A stretch of 64,000 nt of DNA from Lachnospiraceae bacterium 10-1 (lineage in GTDB: Bacteria; Bacillota; Clostridia; Lachnospirales; Lachnospiraceae): positions 118,066-182,065 of the forward strand of contig KE159819.1 of assembly GCA_000403495.2 (NCBI GenBank). The letters run 5' to 3'. The notes below the pieces were generated by a model. That model worked only from the letters and a program-made list of their open reading frames with translations. It was not told the origin of the DNA and did not search any database. Shown in pieces: positions 53,201 to 64,000 of this stretch (the stretch's first letter is position 1; every line of letters starts with the position of its first letter). The position numbers and the translations under genes were made by a program.

Positions 53201-53446
53201 CCTAATGTGGGTGATATGATTGCCAATGGTGACTTTGACCTGATCATTAATTCCCCGGTAGGCAAAGACGGCGTTCATGATGACAGTTATCTTAGAAAAG
53301 CGGCAATCAAGGCAAAAGCACCTTATATTACCACCGTTGCAGCGGCTAAAGTGGCGGCAGAAGGAATTCATTACGTGAAAACCCACAGGCAGGGTGAACT
53401 TAAATCGTTGCAGGAACTGCATGGCGAAATTCATGACAAAGATTGA
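50219..53446 (+). CDS. carB: carbamoyl-phosphate synthase large subunit
   Basis: 1075-residue ATP-grasp enzyme making carbamoyl phosphate from ammonia, bicarbonate and two ATP for pyrimidine and arginine synthesis. Two homologous halves are seen: IIGSGPIIIGQACEFDYSGTQA near residue 12 and ILGGGPNRIGQGIEFDYCC near 556, with ATP-grasp segments RPAYTMGGAGGG and RPSYVLGGRGME. A C-terminal MGS-like allosteric domain (about 935-1060) is present. TTAGGAGGG precedes the ATG. The glutaminase subunit carA is not adjacent, so it must be encoded elsewhere. Confidence 0.97.
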   Translation: MPKRSDIHKVLIIGSGPIIIGQACEFDYSGTQACKALRKLGYEIVLVNSNPATIMTDPETADVTYIEPLNVERLEQIIAKERPDALLPNLGGQSGLNLCAELNKAGVLDKYHVQVIGVQVDAIERGEDRIEFKKTMDKLGIEMARSEVAYTVDEALSIADKLGYPVVLRPAYTMGGAGGGLVYNKEELQVVCARGLQASLVGQVLVEESILGWEELELEVVRDADNNIITVCFIENIDPLGVHTGDSFCSAPMLTISEECQKRLKEQAYKIVESVQVIGGTNVQFAHDPVTDRIIVIEINPRTSRSSALASKATGFPIALVSAMLAAGLTLKDIPCGKYGTLDKYVPDGDYVVIKFARWAFEKFKGVEDKLGTQMRAVGEVMSIGKTYKEAFQKAIRSLETGRYGLGHAKDFDTLPKEELLRRLNTPSSERHFLMYEALRKGASVEEIHEITRVKAYFIEQMKELVEEEEALLTQSGRLPEDEMLISAKKNGFSDKYLSQLLQIPEEEIRNRRIELGMEETWEGVHVSGTKDNAYYYSTYNGTDKNPVNSDKPKIMILGGGPNRIGQGIEFDYCCVHAAMALKNLGFETIIVNCNPETVSTDYDTSDKLYFEPLTLEDVLSIYKKEKPLGVIAQFGGQTPLNLASELEKNGVKILGTPPAVIDLAEDRDQFRAMMEKLEIPMPESGMATTVEEALAIAAKIGYPVMVRPSYVLGGRGMEVVYDDGSLREYMNAAVGVTPDRPILIDRFLNHALECEADAISDGEHAFVPAVMEHIELAGIHSGDSACIIPSVHIQPENVETIKEYTRRIAEEMHVKGLMNMQYAIEKDRVFVLEANPRASRTVPLVSKVCNIRMVPLATEIITAELTGRPSPIKGLKEQDIPNYGVKEAVFPFNMFPEVDPILGPEMRSTGEVLGLSPSYGEAFFKAQEAVQSKLPLEGCVLISVNKKDKDEIVEIARSLSGDGFKIVATSGTCDIITSAGIPAQKAKKLYEGRPNVGDMIANGDFDLIINSPVGKDGVHDDSYLRKAAIKAKAPYITTVAAAKVAAEGIHYVKTHRQGELKSLQELHGEIHDKD

Positions 53447-53553
53447 TATATGTCCAAACTTTCCCATCATAGACTGTAACAAGTTTATGGTGGGGGTTTT
53501 CAATTCGGGATTTCCATCTGGGGGAGAGAGTAAAACCCCGGAAAGGAGGGCGG

Positions 53554-54300
53554 ATGACATATCAGATAGCACTCTGTGATGACGAGACAGCAGAACTTGA
53601 CAAGACCGAGGAATTATTAAATATTTATGAAAAAAAGCATCCCGGAACGGATTTTATGATCGAACGATTTGAAAGTGCGGGAGAACTGCTTTGTATGGTG
53701 GAAGAAAAAAGTTATGCGCCGGATATGATATTTATGGATATTTTTATGCCGGGGAAGGATGGGGTAAATACTTGTCTGGGAATGGAAGCGGCGAAAAAGC
53801 TTCGTGATATGGGAAACAGGGCAAAGCTTTTTTTTCTTACCACGTCCAAAGAGTATGCGCTGGAGGCTTTTGATGTGGACGCATCCCAGTATTTGATCAA
53901 GCCGGTTGCAGAAGATAAGATCACTTACGTGTTGGACAAGTATCTTGTGGAGAAAGAAGAACGTGATAAATATATTCTGCTTAAAATTGAAGGAAGAATT
54001 GCAAAAGTGGCGGTAAAAGATGTCATATACTGTGAGGCCCGGGGCAAAATACAATGTATGTATCTTGCCGGTGAGAGAGAGTATCTGCTGCGCATGACGA
54101 TGACGGAGCTTTATGAAATGCTTTCAGATTATCGGGAATTTGTGAGGATCGGTGTTGCTTTTATTGTTAATATGGAGTATATTGACAGCTTAAATTCGCA
54201 GGATATTTGTCTTACTGGCGGGAAAAAAATTTATCTTCCAAGGGGTGCTTATAAAACCTTGAAGGAGTCGTATTTCAGGTACTATTGCGGAGAAGAATAG
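53554..54300 (+). CDS. LytTR-family response regulator
   Basis: 248-residue two-domain regulator. The receiver domain (about 1-125) has the acid pocket CDDE, the phospho-acceptor Asp62 in IFMDIFMP and the Lys in LIKPV. The LytTR DNA-binding domain (about 140-245) includes VKDVIYCEARGKIQ and VNMEYID. It is of the AgrA/LytT type. No sensor kinase gene is adjacent in this window. AAAGGAGGGCGG lies just before the ATG. It stands at the head of the partner-switching gene cluster and may regulate it. Confidence 0.9.
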   Translation: MTYQIALCDDETAELDKTEELLNIYEKKHPGTDFMIERFESAGELLCMVEEKSYAPDMIFMDIFMPGKDGVNTCLGMEAAKKLRDMGNRAKLFFLTTSKEYALEAFDVDASQYLIKPVAEDKITYVLDKYLVEKEERDKYILLKIEGRIAKVAVKDVIYCEARGKIQCMYLAGEREYLLRMTMTELYEMLSDYREFVRIGVAFIVNMEYIDSLNSQDICLTGGKKIYLPRGAYKTLKESYFRYYCGEE

Positions 54301-54323
54301 ATTGTTTTCAGAAGAGATGAAGG

Positions 54324-54354
54324 CAGGAGGAGCAGAAATGCTCTTCCTGTTTTT
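54324..54354 (+). terminator. terminator after the LytTR regulator
   Basis: The stem CAGGAGGAGCA / TGCTCTTCCTG with a short loop is followed by TTTTT, about 25 nt after the stop codon. Confidence 0.85.
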
Positions 54355-54504
54355 ATGTGGGAACAGAAGAATTTCGGATACAAAATTTTAAGGTTGTTTA
54401 CAAATTATGCTGAAAAAAGTGCAATGTATTCTCAAATAAAGAAAACAGGAAAATTTTCTGGTAAACTGAAAACAGCCGAAGGAAAGCGGAGGAGACGGTA
54501 GAAA

Positions 54505-54912
54505 ATGAAGGAATTAATCATTGATGCAACAGTTGAAAATATTGAGAAAGTAGTAGAATTTGTAGATGAACAGTTAGAGAAACTGGAGTGTCCTATTAAG
54601 GCACAGATGCAGATAGATATTGCCATTGATGAACTGTTTGGGAATATTGCCCACTATGCCTATAAACCAGAGGTGGGATCTGCTGTTGTACGTGTGGAGG
54701 TAATGGAAAATCCTCTGGCAGTGGCAGTCACCTTTATTGATAATGGAGTACCTTATGATCCGCTGGCGGCCCAGGATCCGGACACCACGCTTTCAGCAGA
54801 AGAAAGGCAGATTGGCGGCCTTGGCATCTATATGGTTAAGAAGAGTATGGATGATATCACCTATGAATACCGGGATGGAAAAAATATATTAAAGATTAAA
54901 AAAAATATATAA
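54505..54912 (+). CDS. RsbW-like anti-sigma factor / serine kinase (HATPase_c_2)
   Basis: 135-residue GHKL ATPase of the anti-sigma type. N-box QIDIAIDELFGNIAHYAY (Glu and Asn in place), G1 FIDNGVPYDP and G2 IGGLGIYMVKKSMD are all intact, so ATP binding and kinase activity are expected. Such proteins bind and phosphorylate STAS partners and may hold a sigma factor or other effector. No sigma factor gene is adjacent; a STAS gene lies at 58655. CGGAGGAGA lies upstream. Confidence 0.9.
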   Translation: MKELIIDATVENIEKVVEFVDEQLEKLECPIKAQMQIDIAIDELFGNIAHYAYKPEVGSAVVRVEVMENPLAVAVTFIDNGVPYDPLAAQDPDTTLSAEERQIGGLGIYMVKKSMDDITYEYRDGKNILKIKKNI

Positions 54913-54970
54913 CAAATTATACCAGAAAAAACACAAATCATACCATACCCGCCAAAGCAAAAATCTTATC

Positions 54971-54979
54971 TGCTATAAT
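54971..54979 (+). promoter_or_regulatory. extended -10 promoter before the Cys-rich gene
   Basis: TGCTATAAT is an extended -10 (TGnTATAAT) about 50 nt upstream of the start codon at 55029. No clear -35 box is seen. Confidence 0.5.
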
Positions 54980-55028
54980 AGCGTACAATACGGGCTTTTT
55001 TAAATGATAGTTGATGGGAGAATGAAAT

Positions 55029-55232
55029 ATGACAGATTGTGACAACAAAAGACCATGCCCATGCACGTATGACTGTCCAAGACATGGGAAGTGCTGTGCC
55101 TGCGTGGCGCATCACAGGGATAACAACGAGGGAGTACCCGGATGCTTTTTTTCCGCGCAGGCGGAAGCTACATATGACAGGAGTATAGAAGCTCTGTGCC
55201 GGGACAGAGGGATCATGTCAGAGGAAAGGTGA
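55029..55232 (+). CDS. small cysteine-rich conserved protein
   Basis: 67-residue soluble protein with nine Cys in its first 40 or so residues, arranged as CPCTYDCPRHGKCCACVAHHR...PGCFF. This may be a metal-binding knuckle (zinc or iron-sulfur). It resembles small Cys-rich cytosolic proteins common in Clostridia (DUF6485-like; recollection, not searched). GGGAGAATG precedes the start and the next gene begins 6 nt after it, so it is likely co-expressed with the amino-acid transporter. Confidence 0.75.
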   Translation: MTDCDNKRPCPCTYDCPRHGKCCACVAHHRDNNEGVPGCFFSAQAEATYDRSIEALCRDRGIMSEER

Positions 55233-55238
55233 GGAAAA

Positions 55239-57491
55239 ATGGTTTTGCAAAAAAGAACGGCGCTTTTAACATTTGCCCTTTCAGGGATCCTCTGCCTTGG
55301 GGGATGTGGAAGGAAAGAAAATGAAAAAATCACTTCCATAGAACAGCTTAACAATCCTGCCTATACAATTGGCGTTCCGGAAGGTGGGGCAGGCATGTAT
55401 ATGGCGGAAAAATATCTGCCGGAGGCGGAGCGTAAAACATTTTCCGGCAACACTTCGGGGTACCTTGCTATTTCTCAGGGAAAACTGGACGGGTTTGTTT
55501 ATGACCGGGTAATGATGGAATTTGCTATTGCCAGCGGCCTGGAGAATGTGGAGATTTTAGAGGAAAATCTGGGAGAAAGTATGGATGTGGCTGTGGGGAT
55601 TTCACCTAAAAGCCAGATTGAAAATTTAAAGGATAAAGTGAACCAGTTTCTGTCGGAAGCAAGAGCTGAGGGGACGCTGGATGATATGTATGACCGCTGG
55701 GTAAGCAGGGCAGAGGGAACCATGCCGGAAATACAGGCGCCCCAGATGCCGGACTGTAAACTTAAGGTGGGAACCACAGGGATGGTTCAGCCTTTCAGCT
55801 ACTATGAGGGGACGACTCTTACCGGATATGATGTGGAGCTGATTTACCGTTTTGGAGCGTGGCTGAATGCGGAAGTGGAAATTAAGATTTACGACTATGA
55901 CGGAATTATTGCTGCGGCACAGGCCGGCGACATTGACTGTATTATGGCGAATTTAAATGCCACCGAGGAAAGGCGCAGACATATCGAATTTTCCGATTGT
56001 GTTTATCCTTCGGTGACTGCCGTTATGGTAAGGTCGGAACAGAAAGACAGCACAGAGAAAAAATACGAGACACTTTCGGACTTTGCCGGAGCAAGGTTTG
56101 CCTCATTAAGCGGAGGGGTTTACGATAAACTTTTACAGGAAGTAATTGCGGATGCGGAAGATTTCTCCTACTACAATTCTGTTCCCGATATTGTTGCGGC
56201 CCTTAAGGCAGACCGTGTGGATGCGGGCGTGCTGGATGAGCCGCTGGCACAGCTTGCGGCAGCAAGAAATGAAGGGCTGAAAATTTTTGAAGAACCTGTC
56301 GTACAGGATAAATATGGATATGCTTTTCAAAAAGGAAGCCTTCTGCGGGATCAGTTTAATGAACTTATTGCAAAGTTTAAAGAGGACGGGACAATTGCAT
56401 CCTTAAAGGATAAATGGCTTGGGGCGGATGAGAGCATAAAGGTATTGACACAGCAGGACTGGCCGGGGGATAAGGGAATTATCCGGTACTACTATGATGG
56501 CACCCATGAGCCTATGACCTATCTTGGAAGCAGCGGTGAACCTTTAGGGCTTGAGATAGATCTGCTGCTTCTGATTGCACGTGAGCTGGATATGAAGGTG
56601 GAGATGACAACATGTGAATTTGCTTCGCTGATAACTGCCCTTGAAACCGGGAAGGCGGATGTGGTCAGCGGAAGTCTTTCCATCACGGAAGAAAGAGCGA
56701 AGCGGGTAGATTTTGCAGATACTCATTATGACTCAGCTATGGTACTTCTGGTGCGTGACTTGGATGGGGCAGTGCAGGAAAAAGGTTTCTGGGCAAATCT
56801 TGGGGACAGCTTCCAAAGCACTTTTGTAGTGGAGGGGCGCTGGCGGCTGATTTTGCGGGGGCTTGGCGTCACCATACTGATTTCTGTTTTTTCAGGATTT
56901 TTTGGTCTGTGCCTTGGCTTTGGAATATGTATGCTGCGCCGGATCAATTGTAAGTCAGTTCAGTGGATCGGGGCGGTCTTTGTTCGTGTGATTCAGGGAA
57001 CCCCTATTGTAGTCTTTCTGATGATTTTGTATTACGGAATTTTTGGTTCGGTGGATATTTCTGAAATTCTGGTTGCAGTTATTGGATTTTCCATTAATTT
57101 CGCGGCCTATTCATCAGAGATGATGCGGACAGGAATAGAAACGGTGGATAAGGGGCAAAGTGAGGCAGCCCTTGCCATGGGTTATACGAAAGGCCAGACA
57201 TTTTTTAAGATTGTATTGCCCCAGGCGGCCAGGAATTTTATTCCTGTGCTGAAAGGTGAATTTATTTCCATGGTAAAAATGACTTCAGTAGTAGGGTATA
57301 TTGCTGTACAGGATCTTACCAAGGTATCCGATATTATACGCTCACGTACCATGGAGGCGTTCTTTCCACTGATAATGACGGCAGTAATTTATTTTATTGT
57401 TGCCAATGTGATGACGGCAGCTCTCTCATTTGCAGAGAGGAAAGTTGCACCGAAGCGGAATAAACGCAGTTTAAAGGGGGTGTGCATGTGA
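55239..57491 (+). CDS. amino-acid ABC transporter: substrate-binding modules fused to permease
   Basis: 750-residue lipoprotein-permease fusion. The signal has lipobox LGGC (Cys near 23). Next come a half SBP module resembling lobe 2 (about 32-155), a full family-3 SBP (about 172-398: [15 protein letters not shown] ... LKDKWLG), a half module resembling lobe 1 (about 405-505: [14 protein letters not shown] ... [12 protein letters not shown]), and a HisM/GlnP-type permease (about 530-740) with loop [25 protein letters not shown]. It would import a polar amino acid with its ATPase. The stop overlaps the ATPase reading frame's upstream codons. GTGAGG precedes the ATG. Confidence 0.9.
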
Positions 57492-57535
57492 TAACAGAAA
57501 AGCATGAAGCCCGGGACGCTTGTGCCGGGGAAAAT

Positions 57536-58633
57536 ATGAACACGAGCATAATATCTATCCGGCATCTGTGTAAGGAATTTTTGAACGTAACTCCTTTAAA
57601 GGATGTAAGCGTGGAGATTAAAAAAGGAGAGGTAATCTCCATTATAGGTCCGTCAGGCACAGGAAAGTCAACCCTGCTTCGCTGTATTAATCTTCTGGAG
57701 ACACCTACAAAAGGCGAGATTGTGGTAGACGGTGTGGTAACAACGGATAAGAAATGTAAGGTAAATCTGGTGAGGCAGAAGATGGGAATGGTATTTCAGT
57801 CCTTTAACCTGTTTGCACACAAGACCATTATAGAAAATATCATGATGGGGCAGGTCGATCTTCTTAAAAGAAACAGGCAGGAGGCTTATGACAAAGGGAT
57901 GGAACTGCTGCGTAATATAGGGCTTGCAGACAAGGCTTTCTCTTATCCGGATGAACTTTCCGGAGGACAGAAGCAGCGTGCGGCTATTGCAAGGACGGTG
58001 GCCATGGAGCCGGAAATTATTCTTTTTGACGAGCCCACTTCCGCCCTGGATCCCACTATGGTGGGGGAAGTTCTTTCGGTTATCCGTGGACTGGCAGGGC
58101 AGGGAATGACCATGATGATCGTGACTCATGAAATGAAGTTTGCCCGGGATGTATCCACCAGGATATTTTATATGGATCAGGGCGAAATCTATGAGGACGG
58201 AACGCCGGAACAGATTTTTGAGCACCCAAAGAGGGAGAGAACCCGGATATTTATCCGGCAGCTTAAGGTACTCCATGTGGAAAAAATCTCACGTGACTTT
58301 GATTTCCCGGCCTTTATGACACGTCTTGAGGAGTTCGGACGTAAACAGCAGTTTTCTCAGAGACAGATTTACGCCATGCAGCTTGTTGTGGAGGAAGTGC
58401 TGATGCAAAAACTTCTGCCTGCGGCAGGGGAAGCGGAGGAAAGAGATCTTTCTCTGGATGTGGAATACAGCGAGCGGGAAAATCTGGCGCAGATGCGGTT
58501 TTCCTATAATGGACCTTCTTTTTATCCTTTTGGGGAGGAAGAAGATTTGTCCGGCAGGATGATAAAAGGAATGTCCAAAGCTATGGAGCATAAGTTTGTG
58601 GATGGAATGAATCATTTTATCATAAGTATATAG
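57536..58633 (+). CDS. amino-acid ABC transporter ATPase fused to a degenerate RsbW-like domain
   Basis: 365-residue fusion. The N-terminal GlnQ-type ATPase (about 1-245) has Walker [10 protein letters not shown], signature [15 protein letters not shown], Walker [13 protein letters not shown] and H-loop VTHEMKF. The C-terminal 115 residues resemble the HATPase protein at 54505: [17 protein letters not shown] for the N-box helix, [17 protein letters not shown] for G1, then [15 protein letters not shown] and a final FIISI strand. Asn of the N-box, Asp of DNG and the G2 glycines are lost, so ATP binding there is unlikely. Start 57536 (GGGG upstream) is preferred; GTG 57482 or 57488, after GGGGG, are alternatives that add 16-18 residues and overlap the permease gene. 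Confidence 0.85.
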
Positions 58634-58654
58634 ATTAAGAAAAGAGGTTGAATT

Positions 58655-58957
58655 ATGAAAATTACAAAAACACAAAACGGAAACAGTTTATATCTTGCAC
58701 TGGAAGGAAGACTGGACACGAATACGGCACCGGAGCTTGAAGCGTCCATCAAAGGTTCCATTGACGGAGTGGAAGAACTGACTATCAATATGGAGTCTTT
58801 GGATTATCTGTCATCAGCAGGGCTGCGCGTCCTTTTAGGAGCACAGAAAATCATGAATAAACAGGGGAGTATGCGTGTGACACATGTCAATGATACGATT
58901 ATGGAGATTTTTGAAGTGACCGGGTTTGCGGATATTCTGACGATTGAAAAGGCATAA
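58655..58957 (+). CDS. STAS-domain anti-sigma factor antagonist
   Basis: 100-residue single STAS domain of the SpoIIAA/RsbV type, with the phosphorylatable Ser in DYLSSAGLRVLL (about residues 50-61). It should bind an RsbW-like partner when unphosphorylated and be released on phosphorylation. Two possible partners are encoded nearby: the intact HATPase at 54505 and the degenerate domain fused to the ABC ATPase just upstream. GAGGTTGA precedes the start. The NRPS gene follows 6 nt later. Confidence 0.92.
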   Translation: MKITKTQNGNSLYLALEGRLDTNTAPELEASIKGSIDGVEELTINMESLDYLSSAGLRVLLGAQKIMNKQGSMRVTHVNDTIMEIFEVTGFADILTIEKA

Positions 58958-58963
58958 AGGGAA

Positions 58964-61900
58964 ATGAACGGATTTAATTTATCACAGACTCAGATTGCAA
59001 TGACGGAACAGGTATGCCCGGGCAGTGCGCGAAATACAATTTCCCTGAAACTTCACTTGCCGGACCATACTCCCCAGAAGGTAAAAGAGGCGGCAGATAT
59101 TGTGCTTGACAGTGCGGATATTTTTGCTGCCTCCCTTAACCGCCGGGATGGGGAGTGGTTCTTTTCTCTGGACGGGAGAAAAATTTCTGAATGCATTATT
59201 GAAAAAAAACGGGCTGCGGACCTGGCGGAAGAATATATGGAAGTCATGGACAGACAGCCTTTTAATATGGAACAGTGTCTGTATCGGGCGGAAGTCATTC
59301 CTCTTTCAGGAGGAGGGGTTTTTTTGTATGTGCGTTTCCATCATGTGATTATTGATGGTTATGGCATGAGCCTGTTTGTGCAGAAAGTATTGGATGTGCT
59401 TGCCGGGAAAAAGATTATCCGGTCGGTATTTTTTTCGGAGAACAAACCGATTCGGGAGGAGGCCGGGTTCTGGCAGTCTTATTTTGCCGGCGCAGAATTT
59501 GAGAGCGCAGTATTTCCACAGAAAGTGGATGGAAACAGAGTGGGGAATTTCCGGATCAGTGTACCGGAAAAATTGATGAGAGAAGTAGAAACATTTGGGG
59601 AGAGAGAGAAGATTTCAATCCCTTATATTTTTTCAGCAGCTTATGCACTTTATCTGGCTAGAGCCACAGGCAAAAAGGATGCAGTGTTTTTAATGCCCCG
59701 TTTAAACCGGACATTGGGGCAGATGGGCACGCTGGGCTGTTACACACTGCTTGTTCCGGTGAGAGTGCAGGTGGAAGGGGCGGAGACCTTTGCAGACCTT
59801 TGCCGGGAGGTAAAAAGAGCCTCAAGAGAGGCATCGGCCCACAAGGAATGTGGATTTGATAAGATTCTTTCCGCTTTGCGTGATGAAAATATGATAGGGG
59901 AATCCCTGTCTGAATATGTGTTTAATTATTATCGTTATTCCTTTAGCGGAGATTTTCATTACAGTGTCCGGTTCAGCGTGGCCGGGGATATGTCAAACCA
60001 TATGACTTTTAATTTATTCCCCAATGAAAAAGGCGGACTGGATTTACAGGCGGATTATCAGGAAAGTATTTATACAAAGGAAAAAGCCGGATATTTTTGT
60101 GATGCCATTTTGACAATTGCAGCAGAGGGAGCAGCCGGGCAGAATGCTTCCAATTCCACAAGTGCAGGTAACACCACGTCCCCAAAGCTTTCTTACATAA
60201 AAACATTGGGAAAAATGGAATGCGGAAAACTCACATTGATGAGGGGAAAAACATTTCCTATTGGAAAGGAGCTTACGATTCCTTCCCTGTTTTTGAATGC
60301 GGTTGAGAAGTATAAAGAGGCTCCTGCCCTGTATGCAGGAGAGCATACCTTTACATTCGGGCAGCTTGATGACATCAGCAGCCGGATTGCCTGCGGGCTT
60401 CGGCGGCTTGGGGTAAAAAGCGGCGACAGTATTGCCTTTATGTTAAAGCGGGATTACCGTCTGATTCCTACAATTCTTGGCATATCAAAAGCAGGAGCGG
60501 CTTTTATACCAATAGATCCTGCTTATCCTGCGGAAAGAATTTCCTATATTATAGAACACTGCCGACCTTCGAAAACCGGCTCATTAGTGGAAAACCGCAG
60601 GACGACCTGGCTGATTTCTTCTAAGAATGTAGAAATTGCAGATAAATATGATTACATAGAAGTTGATACTCTTTTATCCCAAGAGGCGGAGCCTTGCCTT
60701 TTACCGGAAATCGGGCAGGATGATCTTGCCTATATGATTTTTACGTCAGGCACTACAGGACGCCCTAAAGGGGTAATGCTTTCCCATAAGGGTATTGCCA
60801 ATATTGTGCATCCGGATAACAATCCTTTTAACCGGGATATTACCAGGAACTGTCGTGGGATTGTGGCTATTGGATCTATCTGCTTTGATATTTCCCTGTT
60901 TGAAATTTTTGTGCCTTTGATGAATGGTCTGTTTGTGGAACTGGGCAATGAGAAATCCATGATGGATGCAGGAGAACTGGCGGCCCATATTCTGCGCCAT
61001 GAGGCGGATATTCTTCACTGTACGCCTTCGAGGATTACAGCTTACCTGGCAAATGAATCCTTTCAGAAAGCGCTTGGCAGCGTGAAAGCTGTCCTTGCGG
61101 CAGGGGAAGTTCTGCAGGGAAGCCTTGTGAAACGACTGGAAGACACCTACAAGATACGTATATACAATGGCTACGGCCCAACGGAGACGACCATCGGAGC
61201 TACTATCACCCAGGCAGGAGATTCGGTTTCTATCGGTACGCCTATTGCAAACATGGGCGTCATCCTCTTAAACGGGGAGAGAAATCCGGTACCCTTCGGA
61301 GCTGTGGGAGAAATCTGCATATACGGAAACGGTGTGGGCATGGGTTACAAAGACAGACCGGAGGAAACGGAGGCAAAATATATCAACTGGAAGGGGCTGC
61401 GGCTGTACCGGAGCGGAGATCTGGGATATTTTTCAAATGATGGAAGGCTTATGTACTGCGGCAGAAACGACAGGCAGGTGAAACTGCGGGGACTGCGCAT
61501 CGAACTATCGGAGATTGAAAATGTTATGGGAGAATATCCCGGTGTGGCGGCGTGCTGCTGTATGATACGAAAAATCGAAAAGGCCGATCATCTGGCAGGT
61601 TTTTATACAGTATTATCCAAAGGAGACGTGGACGAGGAAGGATTAAAGGCTCATATGAAGGCAAGACTCACCTCTTACATGGTGCCTGATGTGTTAAAGA
61701 AACTTGACGCTATGCCCCAGACGCCCAACGGCAAGACCGATTTAAAGGCGCTTGCAGCAGAACCGGTGGAATATGTGCGTGCCTATAAACAACCAGAGAC
61801 AGAGAAAGAAAAACTGATTTGCGGCGTTTTTGAGGAAGTGCTGTCTATAGAGCAGGTCGGCCTTAATGATAACTTTTTTGAGCTGGGCGGCGATTCTTTG

Positions 61901-63220
61901 AATGCGGTTACTGCAATACTTAAAATAGAAGAAAAGCTGGGACTTTCGGAAAACCAGTTGGAATTTGGGGACTTATATCAGTTTCCAACACCTGCTCTTT
62001 TGCTGGAACGGATTTTTAAAAAGGCAGATGATGCAGATGACACAGGATATGACATTAAGTCCCTGAATTACAGCGGATTTGCAGAATATCTTGCTTGTCA
62101 TACGAAGAATAAGATAAAAAATAAACCCCTTGGAAATGTGCTTCTGACGGGAGTGACAGGGTATCTTGGCATACATATTTTGGTGGATCTGCTTAGAAAT
62201 CAAAATTTATGTGACAAAATTGTATGCCTTTCAAGGCCCAGGAAAACCCTTACGGCCTTAAAACGGGTGAAGTCTTCTTTGTTTTATTATGCGGAGGAGG
62301 ATTTCTCCGAAGATTATGGTAAGAAGTGGCTGGTGGTGGAAGGAGATATTACGAATCCGGATATTTTTGCACAGGAATGCCCGGTACCCATTGACACTAT
62401 CATAAACTCCGCCGCCAATGTATCCCATTTTTCTTATGGGGACAATCTGGAAAAGATCAATACGGAGGGCGTTAAAAATCTGATACGTTTTGCCAGAAGG
62501 GAACGTGCAATGCTATGCCAGATTTCAACAATCAGTGTTGCTGGCATGACCGCAGGGATGGCGGAAAAGGACAGCTTTAGCGAGTCGGATTTTTATATCG
62601 GACAGGAAATACATAATAAATATATTTACTCTAAATATATGGCGGAATATGAAATGCTGCGGGCGGCAGTGGAGAATGGGCTGAAAATTAAGATCATACG
62701 CATTGGAAACCTTCAGGGGCGTATCTGCGACGGGGAATTTCAGATGAATCTTCATTCTAATGCTTTTGCGCGCCAGTTTTCTTCTTATATAAAAATAGGT
62801 GCGGTACCTAAATCTGTCTATGAGGGAAGTGTCAATTTTTCACCTGTGGATGAGACGGCTCACAATATTGTTATACTGACAGCTACGGAAGAGGATACGG
62901 CAATTTTCCATGTATATCCGCCTACGGAACTGAAATTTGCAGATTTGTTTCAGGGAGCCGGTAAGCTGGGGTATTCCATTGACGTACTGCCTGACGAAAA
63001 ATTTTTTTCACTGATGCAGGAACGGAAACGGACGGAGGAAGGCCGGGAACAACTGCAGGGGCTTATGACAAATGAACTTTCTAAAGGGCGTCAGGATATT
63101 CCAGTGTTACAGGATGCTACCAACCAATATTTAGAGGATTTAAAGTCTGGCTGGAGTGCCATTACCGAAGCGTATTTAGACAAATATCTGTCCGCCTTAA
63201 GCGGGATGGATTTATTTTAG
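58964..63220 (+). CDS. one-module nonribosomal peptide synthetase: C-A-T-reductase
   Basis: 1418-residue synthetase. A condensation domain (about 10-400) has an active HHVIIDG near 125-131. The adenylation domain (about 440-890) has FTSGTTGRPKG near 592, FDISLFEIF with pocket Asp642, NGYGPTETT and YRSGDLGYF. The thiolation domain carries Ser978 in LGGDSLNAV. A C-terminal thioester reductase (about 1055-1418) has Rossmann loop LLTGVTGYLG and Tyr/Lys in YSKYMAEYEM. It would join one amino acid to an acyl or aminoacyl donor and release the product by NADPH reduction as an aldehyde or alcohol. No phosphopantetheinyl transferase gene is in the window. AAAGGG precedes the ATG. Confidence 0.93.
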   Translation: MNGFNLSQTQIAMTEQVCPGSARNTISLKLHLPDHTPQKVKEAADIVLDSADIFAASLNRRDGEWFFSLDGRKISECIIEKKRAADLAEEYMEVMDRQPFNMEQCLYRAEVIPLSGGGVFLYVRFHHVIIDGYGMSLFVQKVLDVLAGKKIIRSVFFSENKPIREEAGFWQSYFAGAEFESAVFPQKVDGNRVGNFRISVPEKLMREVETFGEREKISIPYIFSAAYALYLARATGKKDAVFLMPRLNRTLGQMGTLGCYTLLVPVRVQVEGAETFADLCREVKRASREASAHKECGFDKILSALRDENMIGESLSEYVFNYYRYSFSGDFHYSVRFSVAGDMSNHMTFNLFPNEKGGLDLQADYQESIYTKEKAGYFCDAILTIAAEGAAGQNASNSTSAGNTTSPKLSYIKTLGKMECGKLTLMRGKTFPIGKELTIPSLFLNAVEKYKEAPALYAGEHTFTFGQLDDISSRIACGLRRLGVKSGDSIAFMLKRDYRLIPTILGISKAGAAFIPIDPAYPAERISYIIEHCRPSKTGSLVENRRTTWLISSKNVEIADKYDYIEVDTLLSQEAEPCLLPEIGQDDLAYMIFTSGTTGRPKGVMLSHKGIANIVHPDNNPFNRDITRNCRGIVAIGSICFDISLFEIFVPLMNGLFVELGNEKSMMDAGELAAHILRHEADILHCTPSRITAYLANESFQKALGSVKAVLAAGEVLQGSLVKRLEDTYKIRIYNGYGPTETTIGATITQAGDSVSIGTPIANMGVILLNGERNPVPFGAVGEICIYGNGVGMGYKDRPEETEAKYINWKGLRLYRSGDLGYFSNDGRLMYCGRNDRQVKLRGLRIELSEIENVMGEYPGVAACCCMIRKIEKADHLAGFYTVLSKGDVDEEGLKAHMKARLTSYMVPDVLKKLDAMPQTPNGKTDLKALAAEPVEYVRAYKQPETEKEKLICGVFEEVLSIEQVGLNDNFFELGGDSLNAVTAILKIEEKLGLSENQLEFGDLYQFPTPALLLERIFKKADDADDTGYDIKSLNYSGFAEYLACHTKNKIKNKPLGNVLLTGVTGYLGIHILVDLLRNQNLCDKIVCLSRPRKTLTALKRVKSSLFYYAEEDFSEDYGKKWLVVEGDITNPDIFAQECPVPIDTIINSAANVSHFSYGDNLEKINTEGVKNLIRFARRERAMLCQISTISVAGMTAGMAEKDSFSESDFYIGQEIHNKYIYSKYMAEYEMLRAAVENGLKIKIIRIGNLQGRICDGEFQMNLHSNAFARQFSSYIKIGAVPKSVYEGSVNFSPVDETAHNIVILTATEEDTAIFHVYPPTELKFADLFQGAGKLGYSIDVLPDEKFFSLMQERKRTEEGREQLQGLMTNELSKGRQDIPVLQDATNQYLEDLKSGWSAITEAYLDKYLSALSGMDLF

Positions 63221-63237
63221 AAGGAGAGAGATGTTAA

Positions 63238-64000
63238 ATGGTATCAATTGCACTTTGGAGTTTTGCAGTTTTTATGGCATCGGTTTTTGCCGGGCTGCTG
63301 ACGGGGATTACACTTACCCCCAAATATAAAGGGACGATAAGGGCCATTTTCTGGACCATCGGGGCCATCTTGGGATATAGCATGGCGTTTGTGAGTTATT
63401 CTGTTAATCTGTACAATGACGCGGTGGGGATTCTGGGGCTTTCTGCTCTTGTGTGTATTGTGCCGCAGTTTTTATATAAGGACAGCTGGTCTACCAAACT
63501 TACAATTTCATTGATGGCCTGTCTGATTGCCAATGTGAGTACATTTATGTTCTGCGGAACCACGGATACCCTTCTTGGACCGGCTCTTGGATTGATTAAA
63601 GAAAGCCCTTATGATACGCCGAATCTGATTTTTTTTATAGGGATTAAACTTTTTGTTTATGCAATTCTTTCAGTTTTGTATGCACGTTTTCTGAAAAAGA
63701 CCATACACCGTACCATTGAGGCGGTAGGAGGCAAAATGATGGTGTTCCTCCCTGCACTGTTTATCTCGGTGATAGGTTTTTACTTCATTAATCTTGTGTC
63801 AAACGGTGTGGGGATTTATCCCGATAACCCCTGGTTCTTTTTGTTGTATATTACAGTGTGTCTGATATTTGTGGTTGAATTTTGGATGATCTTTTATTCC
63901 ATCAACCAGAGCGCAAAGACCATAAAAACAGCAGCGGAACTGAACGTGGCCACCAATATCCAGAAGTCTATGCTTCCCTGCATTTTTCCGGCTTTCCCGG
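63238..64000 (+). CDS. membrane protein with SpoIIE/RsbU-type linker, partial at right edge
   Basis: The first 254 codons are present and the frame runs off the window. About seven predicted membrane segments (residues 3-225) are followed by a cytoplasmic helix ELNVATNIQKSMLPCIFPAFP, the classic junction that leads into an RsbU/SpoIIE-type PP2C phosphatase domain. The phosphatase itself lies outside, so that part is inferred. It would dephosphorylate the STAS protein encoded at 58655 in response to a membrane or extracellular signal. AAGGAGAG is 10 nt before ATG 63238; an ATG at 63231 is in another frame. It starts 17 nt after the NRPS gene. Confidence 0.8.
   Translation, partial: MVSIALWSFAVFMASVFAGLLTGITLTPKYKGTIRAIFWTIGAILGYSMAFVSYSVNLYNDAVGILGLSALVCIVPQFLYKDSWSTKLTISLMACLIANVSTFMFCGTTDTLLGPALGLIKESPYDTPNLIFFIGIKLFVYAILSVLYARFLKKTIHRTIEAVGGKMMVFLPALFISVIGFYFINLVSNGVGIYPDNPWFFLLYITVCLIFVVEFWMIFYSINQSAKTIKTAAELNVATNIQKSMLPCIFPAFP

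Follow-up and report, generated by a model that had tools for sequence, protein, structure and literature searches.

In textbooks, partner switches appear as regulators of sigma factors. In the RsbU/RsbV/RsbW and SpoIIE/SpoIIAA/SpoIIAB systems, the switch consists of a PP2C phosphatase, a STAS protein with a phosphorylatable serine, and a GHKL serine kinase. Here, we describe a gene run of Lachnospiraceae bacterium 10-1 in which these same three proteins, the kinase with intact motifs, lie among transporters. Unlike the known systems, this module contains no sigma-70-type factor, and additional RsbW-like domains are fused to its transporters, those on the ABC and SDF carriers being predicted to be dead. 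The window, that is, the whole stretch analyzed, comprises 64,000 nucleotides of a 4.57 Mb genome (contig KE159819.1, here C20, positions 118066-182065), and the module in it is labeled L004. With a probability of roughly 0.6, we propose that the module is a partner switch with membrane-transporter activity as its output, in place of a sigma factor or in addition to one.

Several described systems resemble parts of this module. In MlaFB, the STAS protein MlaB is bound to MlaF, the ATPase of an ABC transporter that it is thought to regulate. Its phospho-site is found at the interface, and binding becomes weaker with a phosphomimetic at Thr52 (PMC7367683). However, MlaB binds the nucleotide-binding domain itself, and an RsbW-like tail, a kinase, or a PP2C partner is not described in the available part of that article (PMC7367683). 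The carrier also differs, as an amino-acid importer of the SBP_bac_3 type is found here. In SulP/SLC26 proteins, a STAS domain is likewise tied to a transporter, but it is fused there, according to the sections at hand of PMC8256260; here, it is a separate 100-amino-acid protein, and its RsbW-like partner is on the transporter. Actinobacterial SSS transporters fused to HATPase_c, GAF, and PP2C_SIG domains, as well as CbrA/MxtR, carry kinase-type signaling domains on the transporter chain. They differ in carrier family and in having the kinase and phosphatase domains on the same chain, and the accessible text describes neither a separate STAS switch nor a nonribosomal peptide synthetase (NRPS) (PMC7918813). 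Reductive NRPS clusters of gut bacteria make dipeptide aldehydes, a finding credited to Guo 2017 and Schneider & Balskus 2018 in the excerpts available of two articles (PMC12327764, PMC8518294). Relatives of the window genome have similar multi-module, reductase-ending NRPSs beside MATE transporter genes with RsbW-like domains, whereas the window NRPS has a single module; those excerpts mention neither partner-switch genes nor RsbW-tagged carriers. Thus, partner switching, aldehyde synthesis by gut NRPSs, STAS-regulated ABC transport, and transporter-kinase fusions are each known singly. Among the titles and abstract openings covered, mostly from outside subscription journals, there was no description of RsbW-tagged ABC, SDF, or MATE carriers with a STAS switch.

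Switch proteins and RsbW-like tags in the gene run

The first-pass annotation, made from the letters of the window alone, had described a same-strand run of a LytTR regulator, an RsbW-like kinase, a Cys-rich open reading frame (ORF), a fusion of substrate-binding protein (SBP) and permease, an ABC ATPase, a STAS protein, an NRPS, and a membrane protein. Every part is present on one strand, and the run is tightly packed. Between the SBP and PP2C genes, no spacer exceeds 21 bases, and there is one overlap. The features that concern the switch and its transporters are as follows.

54505-54912, plus strand: RsbW-like serine kinase (HATPase; PF13581, 2.4e-19)
55239-57491, plus strand: triple SBP_bac_3-permease fusion of a polar amino-acid ABC importer (PF00497, 1e-56; BPD_transp_1 PF00528, 7.6e-21)
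57482-58633, plus strand: ABC ATPase (GlnQ/TcyN-like) with a C-terminal RsbW-like domain (family models, tail homology, AlphaFold2)
58256-58630, plus strand: RsbW-like tail of the ABC ATPase (profile comparison, AlphaFold2, joint alignment)
58655-58957, plus strand: STAS protein of the anti-sigma-antagonist family, 100 amino acids (PF01740, 1.4e-14; TIGR00377 above cut-off)
58964-63220, plus strand: reductive NRPS, one module of order C-A-T-R (PF00668, PF00501, PF00550, PF07993)
63238 past 64000 to C20:182742, plus strand: membrane-anchored SpoIIE/RsbU-type PP2C phosphatase, 479 amino acids (PF07228)
C20:182800-184392, outside the window: RsbW-like domain plus SDF symporter, 530 amino acids (profile homology)
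C20:184509-184976, outside the window: gene for a cyclic nucleotide monophosphate (cNMP)-binding protein
C20:185091-186554, outside the window: second RsbW-like plus SDF gene, ORF of 487 amino acids

The three core members of an RsbW/RsbV/RsbU-type partner switch, namely, a GHKL serine kinase, a STAS protein with its serine, and a PP2C phosphatase, are recognizable from their sequences. In the kinase, which had been called intact, the N, G1, and G2 boxes retain E43, N47, D79, G81, G105, and G107, and the catalytic residues are kept in all 30 kinase domains, free or PP2C-fused, of a joint alignment. A search of the PDB with the kinase profile matches RsbW (6m36). Ser54 of the STAS protein is conserved in 5/5 aligned sequences and aligns with the serine of the DS(S/T)G motif in RsbV (6m36_B) and SpoIIAA (1auz). 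The membrane protein runs off the end of the window and had been predicted to be a phosphatase from its linker. Extended past 64000, its frame ends in a PP2C domain (PF07228, 1.6e-45 and 3.3e-45 in two scans, above cut-off), whose catalytic residues are recognized by sight alone. Beyond the reach of the first-pass annotation lie also the two glutamate-type SDF symporters with RsbW-like N-termini and the cNMP-binding gene. In the whole genome, there are one STAS, one kinase, and three PP2C matches. A genome search with PF04542 (sigma-70 region 2), which left other sigma types aside, gave 20 matches and no sigma-70-type factor in the module; the only match on C20 is at C20:206675, approximately 20 kb downstream. 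This agrees with the earlier suggestion that the switch does not serve a sigma factor only.

The extra residues on the transporters, referred to here as tags, number about 125 at the C-terminus of the ABC ATPase and about 120 at the N-terminus of the SDF proteins. At related loci, MATE exporters carry a C-terminal RsbW-like domain; such a protein is absent from the window locus. In profile-profile comparisons against seven kinase domains, none of them on a transporter, ABC tails matched at 97.5% (E 7.2e-12), SDF N-termini at 97.3% (E 1.8e-11), and MATE C-termini at 98.9% (E 3.9e-17). With an eight-row kinase set, one row of which is MATE-linked, the tags reached 98.2, 97.5, and 99.6%, and a STAS alignment used as negative control reached 0.2%. 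With a four-row set, the values were 95.6% for ABC, 93.3% for SDF, and 77.7% for MATE (four rows). Pfam detects HATPase_c_2 at E<=0.1 in 7/7 MATE tags of a non-redundant set (best 1.9e-16), including one above cut-off in L025 (4.7e-11), and in 3/12 homologous ABC tails when E values up to 1 are allowed (best 5.6e-5). It finds none of the tags of the window genome itself, with 0 families in the ABC tail. The MATE tag profile gave weak RsbW and histidine-kinase matches only in the PDB (best 0.0046). AlphaFold2 models of the ABC tag (pLDDT of the ABC ATPase 89.4) and the SDF tag show the order strand-helix-helix-strand-strand-helix-strand-strand (E-H-H-E-E-H-E-E), which is the order expected of the RsbW fold. 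From this homology, all three tag types are assigned to the RsbW family, and the RsbW-like tail noticed earlier on the transporter ATPase is thus borne out.

The tags differ from the kinase in their catalytic residues. The joint alignment spans distant classes, and therefore single columns may be off, above all for SDF; with this in mind, N is kept in 2/42 ABC tags, the G1 Asp in 0/42, and G107 (G2) in 1/42, and in SDF tags the figures are 14/94 for N and 0/94 for the G1 Asp. MATE tags are intermediate (N 20/34, D 23/34, G107 32/34). Nearly all sequences of every class retain the terminal Asn of their last hairpin (kinases 30/30, MATE 34/34, ABC 42/42, SDF 93/94). In the ABC tail of the window itself, the N-box Asn, the G1 Asp, and the G2 Gly are all gone. 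Residues of an active kinase are thus missing from the ABC and SDF tags, which are presumably catalytically dead RsbW domains, or pseudokinases. Therefore, the kinase and the ABC tail of the window cannot be treated as equivalent RsbW-like domains, which corrects the first-pass annotation.

The carrier parts were also compared with known families. The SBP-permease fusion, correctly seen as such in the first pass, has three SBP stretches, and its nearest named models are lysine, glutamine, and cystine importers, each under cut-off. The SDF part has the GltPh/GltTk fold in Foldseek. In the alignment, it is devoid of the NMDGT motif (N and D are replaced) and of residues equivalent to R397 and D405, which we take to be coupling residues of GltPh-type carriers. 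Since these are lost, the SDF carrier may work uncoupled, be coupled in another way, or serve as a sensor. In the second SDF gene (L004:14977-16555), the start, including the first part of the RsbW-like domain, is out of frame; L018 has an open frame of 524 amino acids. The closest named records of the tagged SDF protein are mostly from Lachnospiraceae.

Recurrence of tags, switch genes, and NRPSs in relatives

Tagged carriers and the STAS protein occur together in genomes. The sample consisted of 116 related genomes, 19 with a tagged carrier and 97 without. The cut-offs were E<=1e-15 for STAS, E<=1e-10 plus an ORF size that excludes kinases and PP2C fusions for tags, and E<=1e-40 for the reductase, all set after the lists had been inspected. 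The cognate STAS protein was found in 18/19 genomes with a tagged transporter and in 9/97 without (p 1.4e-13 in Fisher tests uncorrected for phylogeny, in a sample that is not phylogenetically independent). The contrast holds within the genus (12/12 vs 4/25; 37 genomes, G000-G035 and G079) and outside it (6/7 vs 5/72). At a STAS cut-off of 1e-10, it is 18/19 vs 11/97. When G033, whose 749-amino-acid ORF was left out as a probable, unchecked PP2C fusion, is counted as tagged, it becomes 18/20 vs 9/96. Furthermore, STAS was present in 24 of the 27 genomes reached via tagged loci (one genome, G018, appears a second time as G060) and in 44 of another 48 to which tagged SDF loci had led, including both Methanocorpusculaceae genomes.

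Locus comparisons also link the parts. A scan of named genomes for tagged SDF proteins gave 77 loci (the best 80 of 135 relatives). The ORF caller recovered the tagged SDF gene in 71 of these, and no SDF ORF longer than 380 amino acids without a tag was found there. Similarly, the tail was present in 42/42 ABC genes adjoining SBP/permease genes in the loci annotated at that stage. A second tagged carrier type occurs in 35/77 tagged-SDF loci, and a switch gene or such a carrier in 43/77. The whole set of kinase, SBP-permease, tailed ABC, STAS, NRPS, and PP2C genes is found in L004 and L019, and the order STAS-NRPS-PP2C in six loci (L004, L019, L029, L040, L045, and L109), so the co-occurrence that had been anticipated is seen. 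Module parts recur in several families, in a Spirochaetales assembly, and in archaeal assemblies.

One relative has the carriers without the switch genes at this locus. L028, a metagenome assembly (genome G018) that forms a duplicate pair with L018, is missing L004:2452-2953, which is the kinase gene except its last 25 bases, L004:6719-12751, which is the STAS-NRPS-PP2C stretch between the ABC stop and the SDF start, and L004:14419-14910, which is most of the cNMP gene. Its carriers are retained at 95.6-97.1% DNA identity to the window genome. Elsewhere, G018 has another STAS protein and kinase beside PP2C, GH3, and tagged MATE genes. In L019 (genome G001), the first SDF gene is absent and the remainder is kept. 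Therefore, switch genes are absent jointly, and carriers are gained or lost as cassettes.

The window NRPS has the C-A-T-R order of reductive NRPS clusters, as was first suggested, and its HHxxxDG, GGDS, and GxxGxxG motifs are seen by sight. The reductase matches the thioester reductase model TIGR01746 at 5.7e-42, below cut-off (144.3 vs 213.35 bits). The best PDB relatives of the A domain are linear gramicidin synthase domains, and the residues of its specificity code pointed to no nameable substrate. Tagged carriers are present in 12/15 genomes with a window-like reductase domain and in 7/101 others (p 2.7e-9), and mere chance adjacency of the NRPS was rejected on this contrast. When every reductase match (E<=1e-3) is counted, the figures are 12/21 vs 7/95. 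Bigger reductive NRPSs, the largest having four A domains, adjoin tagged MATE genes in relatives. The tagged MATE ORFs number 35, including a decayed copy in the window genome; an NRPS lies within three ORFs in 13, GH3 or LuxE in 7, switch genes in 20, and any of these in 31; many of these regions had been picked around STAS or kinase matches. At other loci, GH3 or LuxE/LuxC enzymes replace the NRPS, and therefore the biosynthetic part is exchangeable. The suggestion that the switch may sense or control an amino-acid transporter and the making of a peptide or acyl-amino aldehyde is favored by the presence of the PP2C domain, by the recurrence of the genes, and by the co-occurrence of STAS and reductase, but its restriction to amino-acid ABC import was too narrow, as SDF and MATE carriers are tagged too.

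Other arrangements were observed around tagged genes. The decayed tagged-MATE and NRPS pair of the window genome is present as fragments (L132; G000:C11:548000-564000). A permease of about 468 amino acids, of the xanthine/uracil family in the one member checked, stands beside tagged SDF or ABC genes in 10 loci (13 ORFs; L066:11616-13019 and its relatives). Within a tagged-transporter cluster with LuxE and LuxC, a RelA/SpoT-domain gene precedes an HD-domain gene (L022:7869-9523). STAS is fused to an APH/choline-kinase-like domain in L115:2386-3567, L118:7770-9287, L116, L117, and L130 (Pfam on the first two); tagged MATE genes share the locus in L115, L118, and L130, and many STAS ORFs of 390-470 amino acids in other genomes may likewise be APH fusions. 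Tagged SDF genes in two Methanocorpusculaceae assemblies (L087 and L089), with a related STAS elsewhere in both genomes, reflect either transfer or binning error.

Companion genes and flanks of the run

The remaining features of the run and its upstream border are as follows.

53426..53500, plus strand: carB 3' end with its intrinsic terminator, forming the left copy of a direct repeat of 75 bp (alignment, hairpin fold, terminator score)
53554-54300, plus strand: LytTR response regulator (PF00072 and PF04397)
55029-55232, plus strand: Cys-rich ORF of 67 amino acids (conserved in other loci; DUF6485 0.0053, under cut-off)

The Cys-rich gene looks like a companion of the module. Its protein is found at E<=1e-15 in 27/132 loci (its own and the duplicate pair L018/L028 included), and its homologs are 70-97% identical across the 26 other loci, including the Spirochaetales locus L078. 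The gene is on the same strand as the nearest module gene in 27/27 loci, and within 300 bp of it in 17 and 1500 bp in 25. For comparison, about 13% of the non-module bases of these loci lie within 300 bp. Membership of the LytTR regulator is doubtful. LytTR-type genes are present in 27/77 related loci, a count that includes no background frequency, and the gene is broken in L028.

The run is bounded by carB on one side and, by sight, by a short gene resembling a broken polysaccharide deacetylase on the other. The copies of the 75-bp repeat are identical at 69/75 positions, and the right copy (L004:16616-16690) lies beyond the second SDF gene. The window genome has exactly two copies, both of which score as terminators. 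The two repeat-bearing flanks also bracket the shorter module version in L018/L028. It is possible that the repeat is an integration or duplication scar. The deacetylase-like gene ends after 134 amino acids, and an apparent mobile element, carrying a large serine recombinase as well as genes of the conjugation type, follows it (L004:16694-20000 and L005, all by sight). A promoter scan gave 31 matches where chance alone predicts 29.4.

A proposed switch of transporter activity and its alternatives

In SpoIIAA/SpoIIAB, the unphosphorylated STAS protein binds RsbW folds and the phosphorylated protein does not. By this rule, dead RsbW folds on carriers would read the phosphorylation state of the STAS protein. 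The membrane-anchored PP2C phosphatase would be the input and would remove the phosphate from Ser54, and the free-standing RsbW-like kinase would put it back. The unphosphorylated STAS protein would then dock on the dead domains of the ABC amino-acid importer and the SDF symporters and alter their activity, by either activation or inhibition. In relatives, tagged MATE exporters would also be its targets. A STAS protein bound to an ABC ATPase has an experimental precedent in MlaB-MlaF (PMC7367683). The NRPS, encoded between STAS and PP2C, would use the same amino-acid pool, with an N-acyl-amino or short peptide aldehyde as its probable product. Because the pool is shared, import, synthesis, and, in relatives, export would be set together. 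In its widest form, this would be a post-translational control bus, in which one STAS protein, one kinase, and one phosphatase address unrelated ABC, SDF, and MATE carriers via a shared RsbW-type tag. Import, synthesis by a reductive NRPS or GH3, and product export would be set as one unit, and the tag would be a portable module that was passed among transporter families of Clostridia, Spirochaetales, and Methanocorpusculaceae. We give this widest form even odds.

Several observations weigh against control of the carriers by the STAS protein. The co-occurrence weakens at a stricter STAS cut-off of 1e-25 (14/19 vs 6/97). G093, which is 99% complete, has a tagged MATE gene and a best STAS match of 3.3e-5. 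STAS is missing from G062 (4.5e-9), G063, and G078 among the 27 genomes and from G145, G161, G177 (1.1e-7), and G180 among the 48, and the kinase is missing from G062, G063, G072, and G078 among the 27. Conversely, nine genomes carry the STAS protein with no tagged transporter detected, and hence STAS may have other partners there. A STAS, PP2C, or kinase gene is within the fetched flank at just 26/77 tagged-SDF loci, and 34/77 have neither switch genes nor another tagged carrier (some contigs are short). PDB sequence searches with the ABC and SDF tag profiles never reach RsbW or anything related. In whole-chain Foldseek searches, the 50 matches listed fall on the transporter halves, that is, on glutamate-type carriers (GltPh/GltTk) and ABC ATPases. 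The simple binding rule does not hold everywhere either, as phosphorylation of Bordetella BtrV promotes its binding to BtrW, according to the sections at hand of PMC8256260. Finally, it is equally possible that the transporters are sensors.

If signals flowed in reverse, the tagged transporters would act as transceptors. Substrate occupancy would alter the amount of STAS protein or kinase that they hold, and the output would be NRPS activity or an unlinked sigma factor. The SDF part without NMDGT and the R397/D405 equivalents may not be a normal Na+-coupled carrier, and MATE tags often retain kinase motifs and could act as kinases, both of which suit such a flow. It nevertheless appears unlikely as a whole. 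An input module is already present, since the PP2C proteins of relatives bear HAMP, dCache, or 5TM sensor domains; a tag on several carrier families points to a shared output more than to a shared input; and the module is devoid of a sigma-70-type factor.

RsbW-type domains are dimeric, and the tags could instead be structural, serving as dimerization or nucleotide-sensing appendages independent of STAS. ABC ATPases often have accessory C-terminal domains (MetN and MalK chains are among the Foldseek matches), and the loss of catalytic motifs from the ABC and SDF tags fits this reading. However, a structural role predicts neither the genome-level link to STAS (18/19 vs 9/97) nor the repeated linkage to STAS, kinase, and PP2C genes, and we consider it quite improbable. 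The kinase, STAS, and phosphatase are each typical when taken singly, and RsbW/RsbV/RsbU sets are best known for sigma-factor control, as stated in the available text of PMC8256260. An ordinary anti-sigma module, with the transporters and the NRPS as mere neighbors, is still very improbable, because the tags are fused onto the transporters themselves and the arrangement recurs across several families, Spirochaetales, and archaeal assemblies. It was rejected, as the module contains no sigma-70-type gene; the PF04542 search leaves room for an unlinked sigma partner.

A partner switch acting on transporters would bear on questions raised by other STAS proteins. In the portions available, SypA and RbaV are described as acting on unknown targets (PMC8256260), and how active MlaB is regulated is left open (PMC7367683). 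In the module described here, a candidate switch target can be read from the sequence, as an RsbW fold fused to an effector. Since the kinase and the phosphatase are in the same gene run, the module bears on how a transporter-regulating STAS protein is switched. It also offers a regulatory and transport context for the gut reductive NRPSs that make protease-inhibiting aldehydes, as described in the excerpts available (PMC12327764, PMC8518294). In this gut bacterium, the docking part of a switch is fused to transporters beside an enzyme that makes a small molecule, which suggests, as a prediction from sequence, that uptake and export may be controlled directly.

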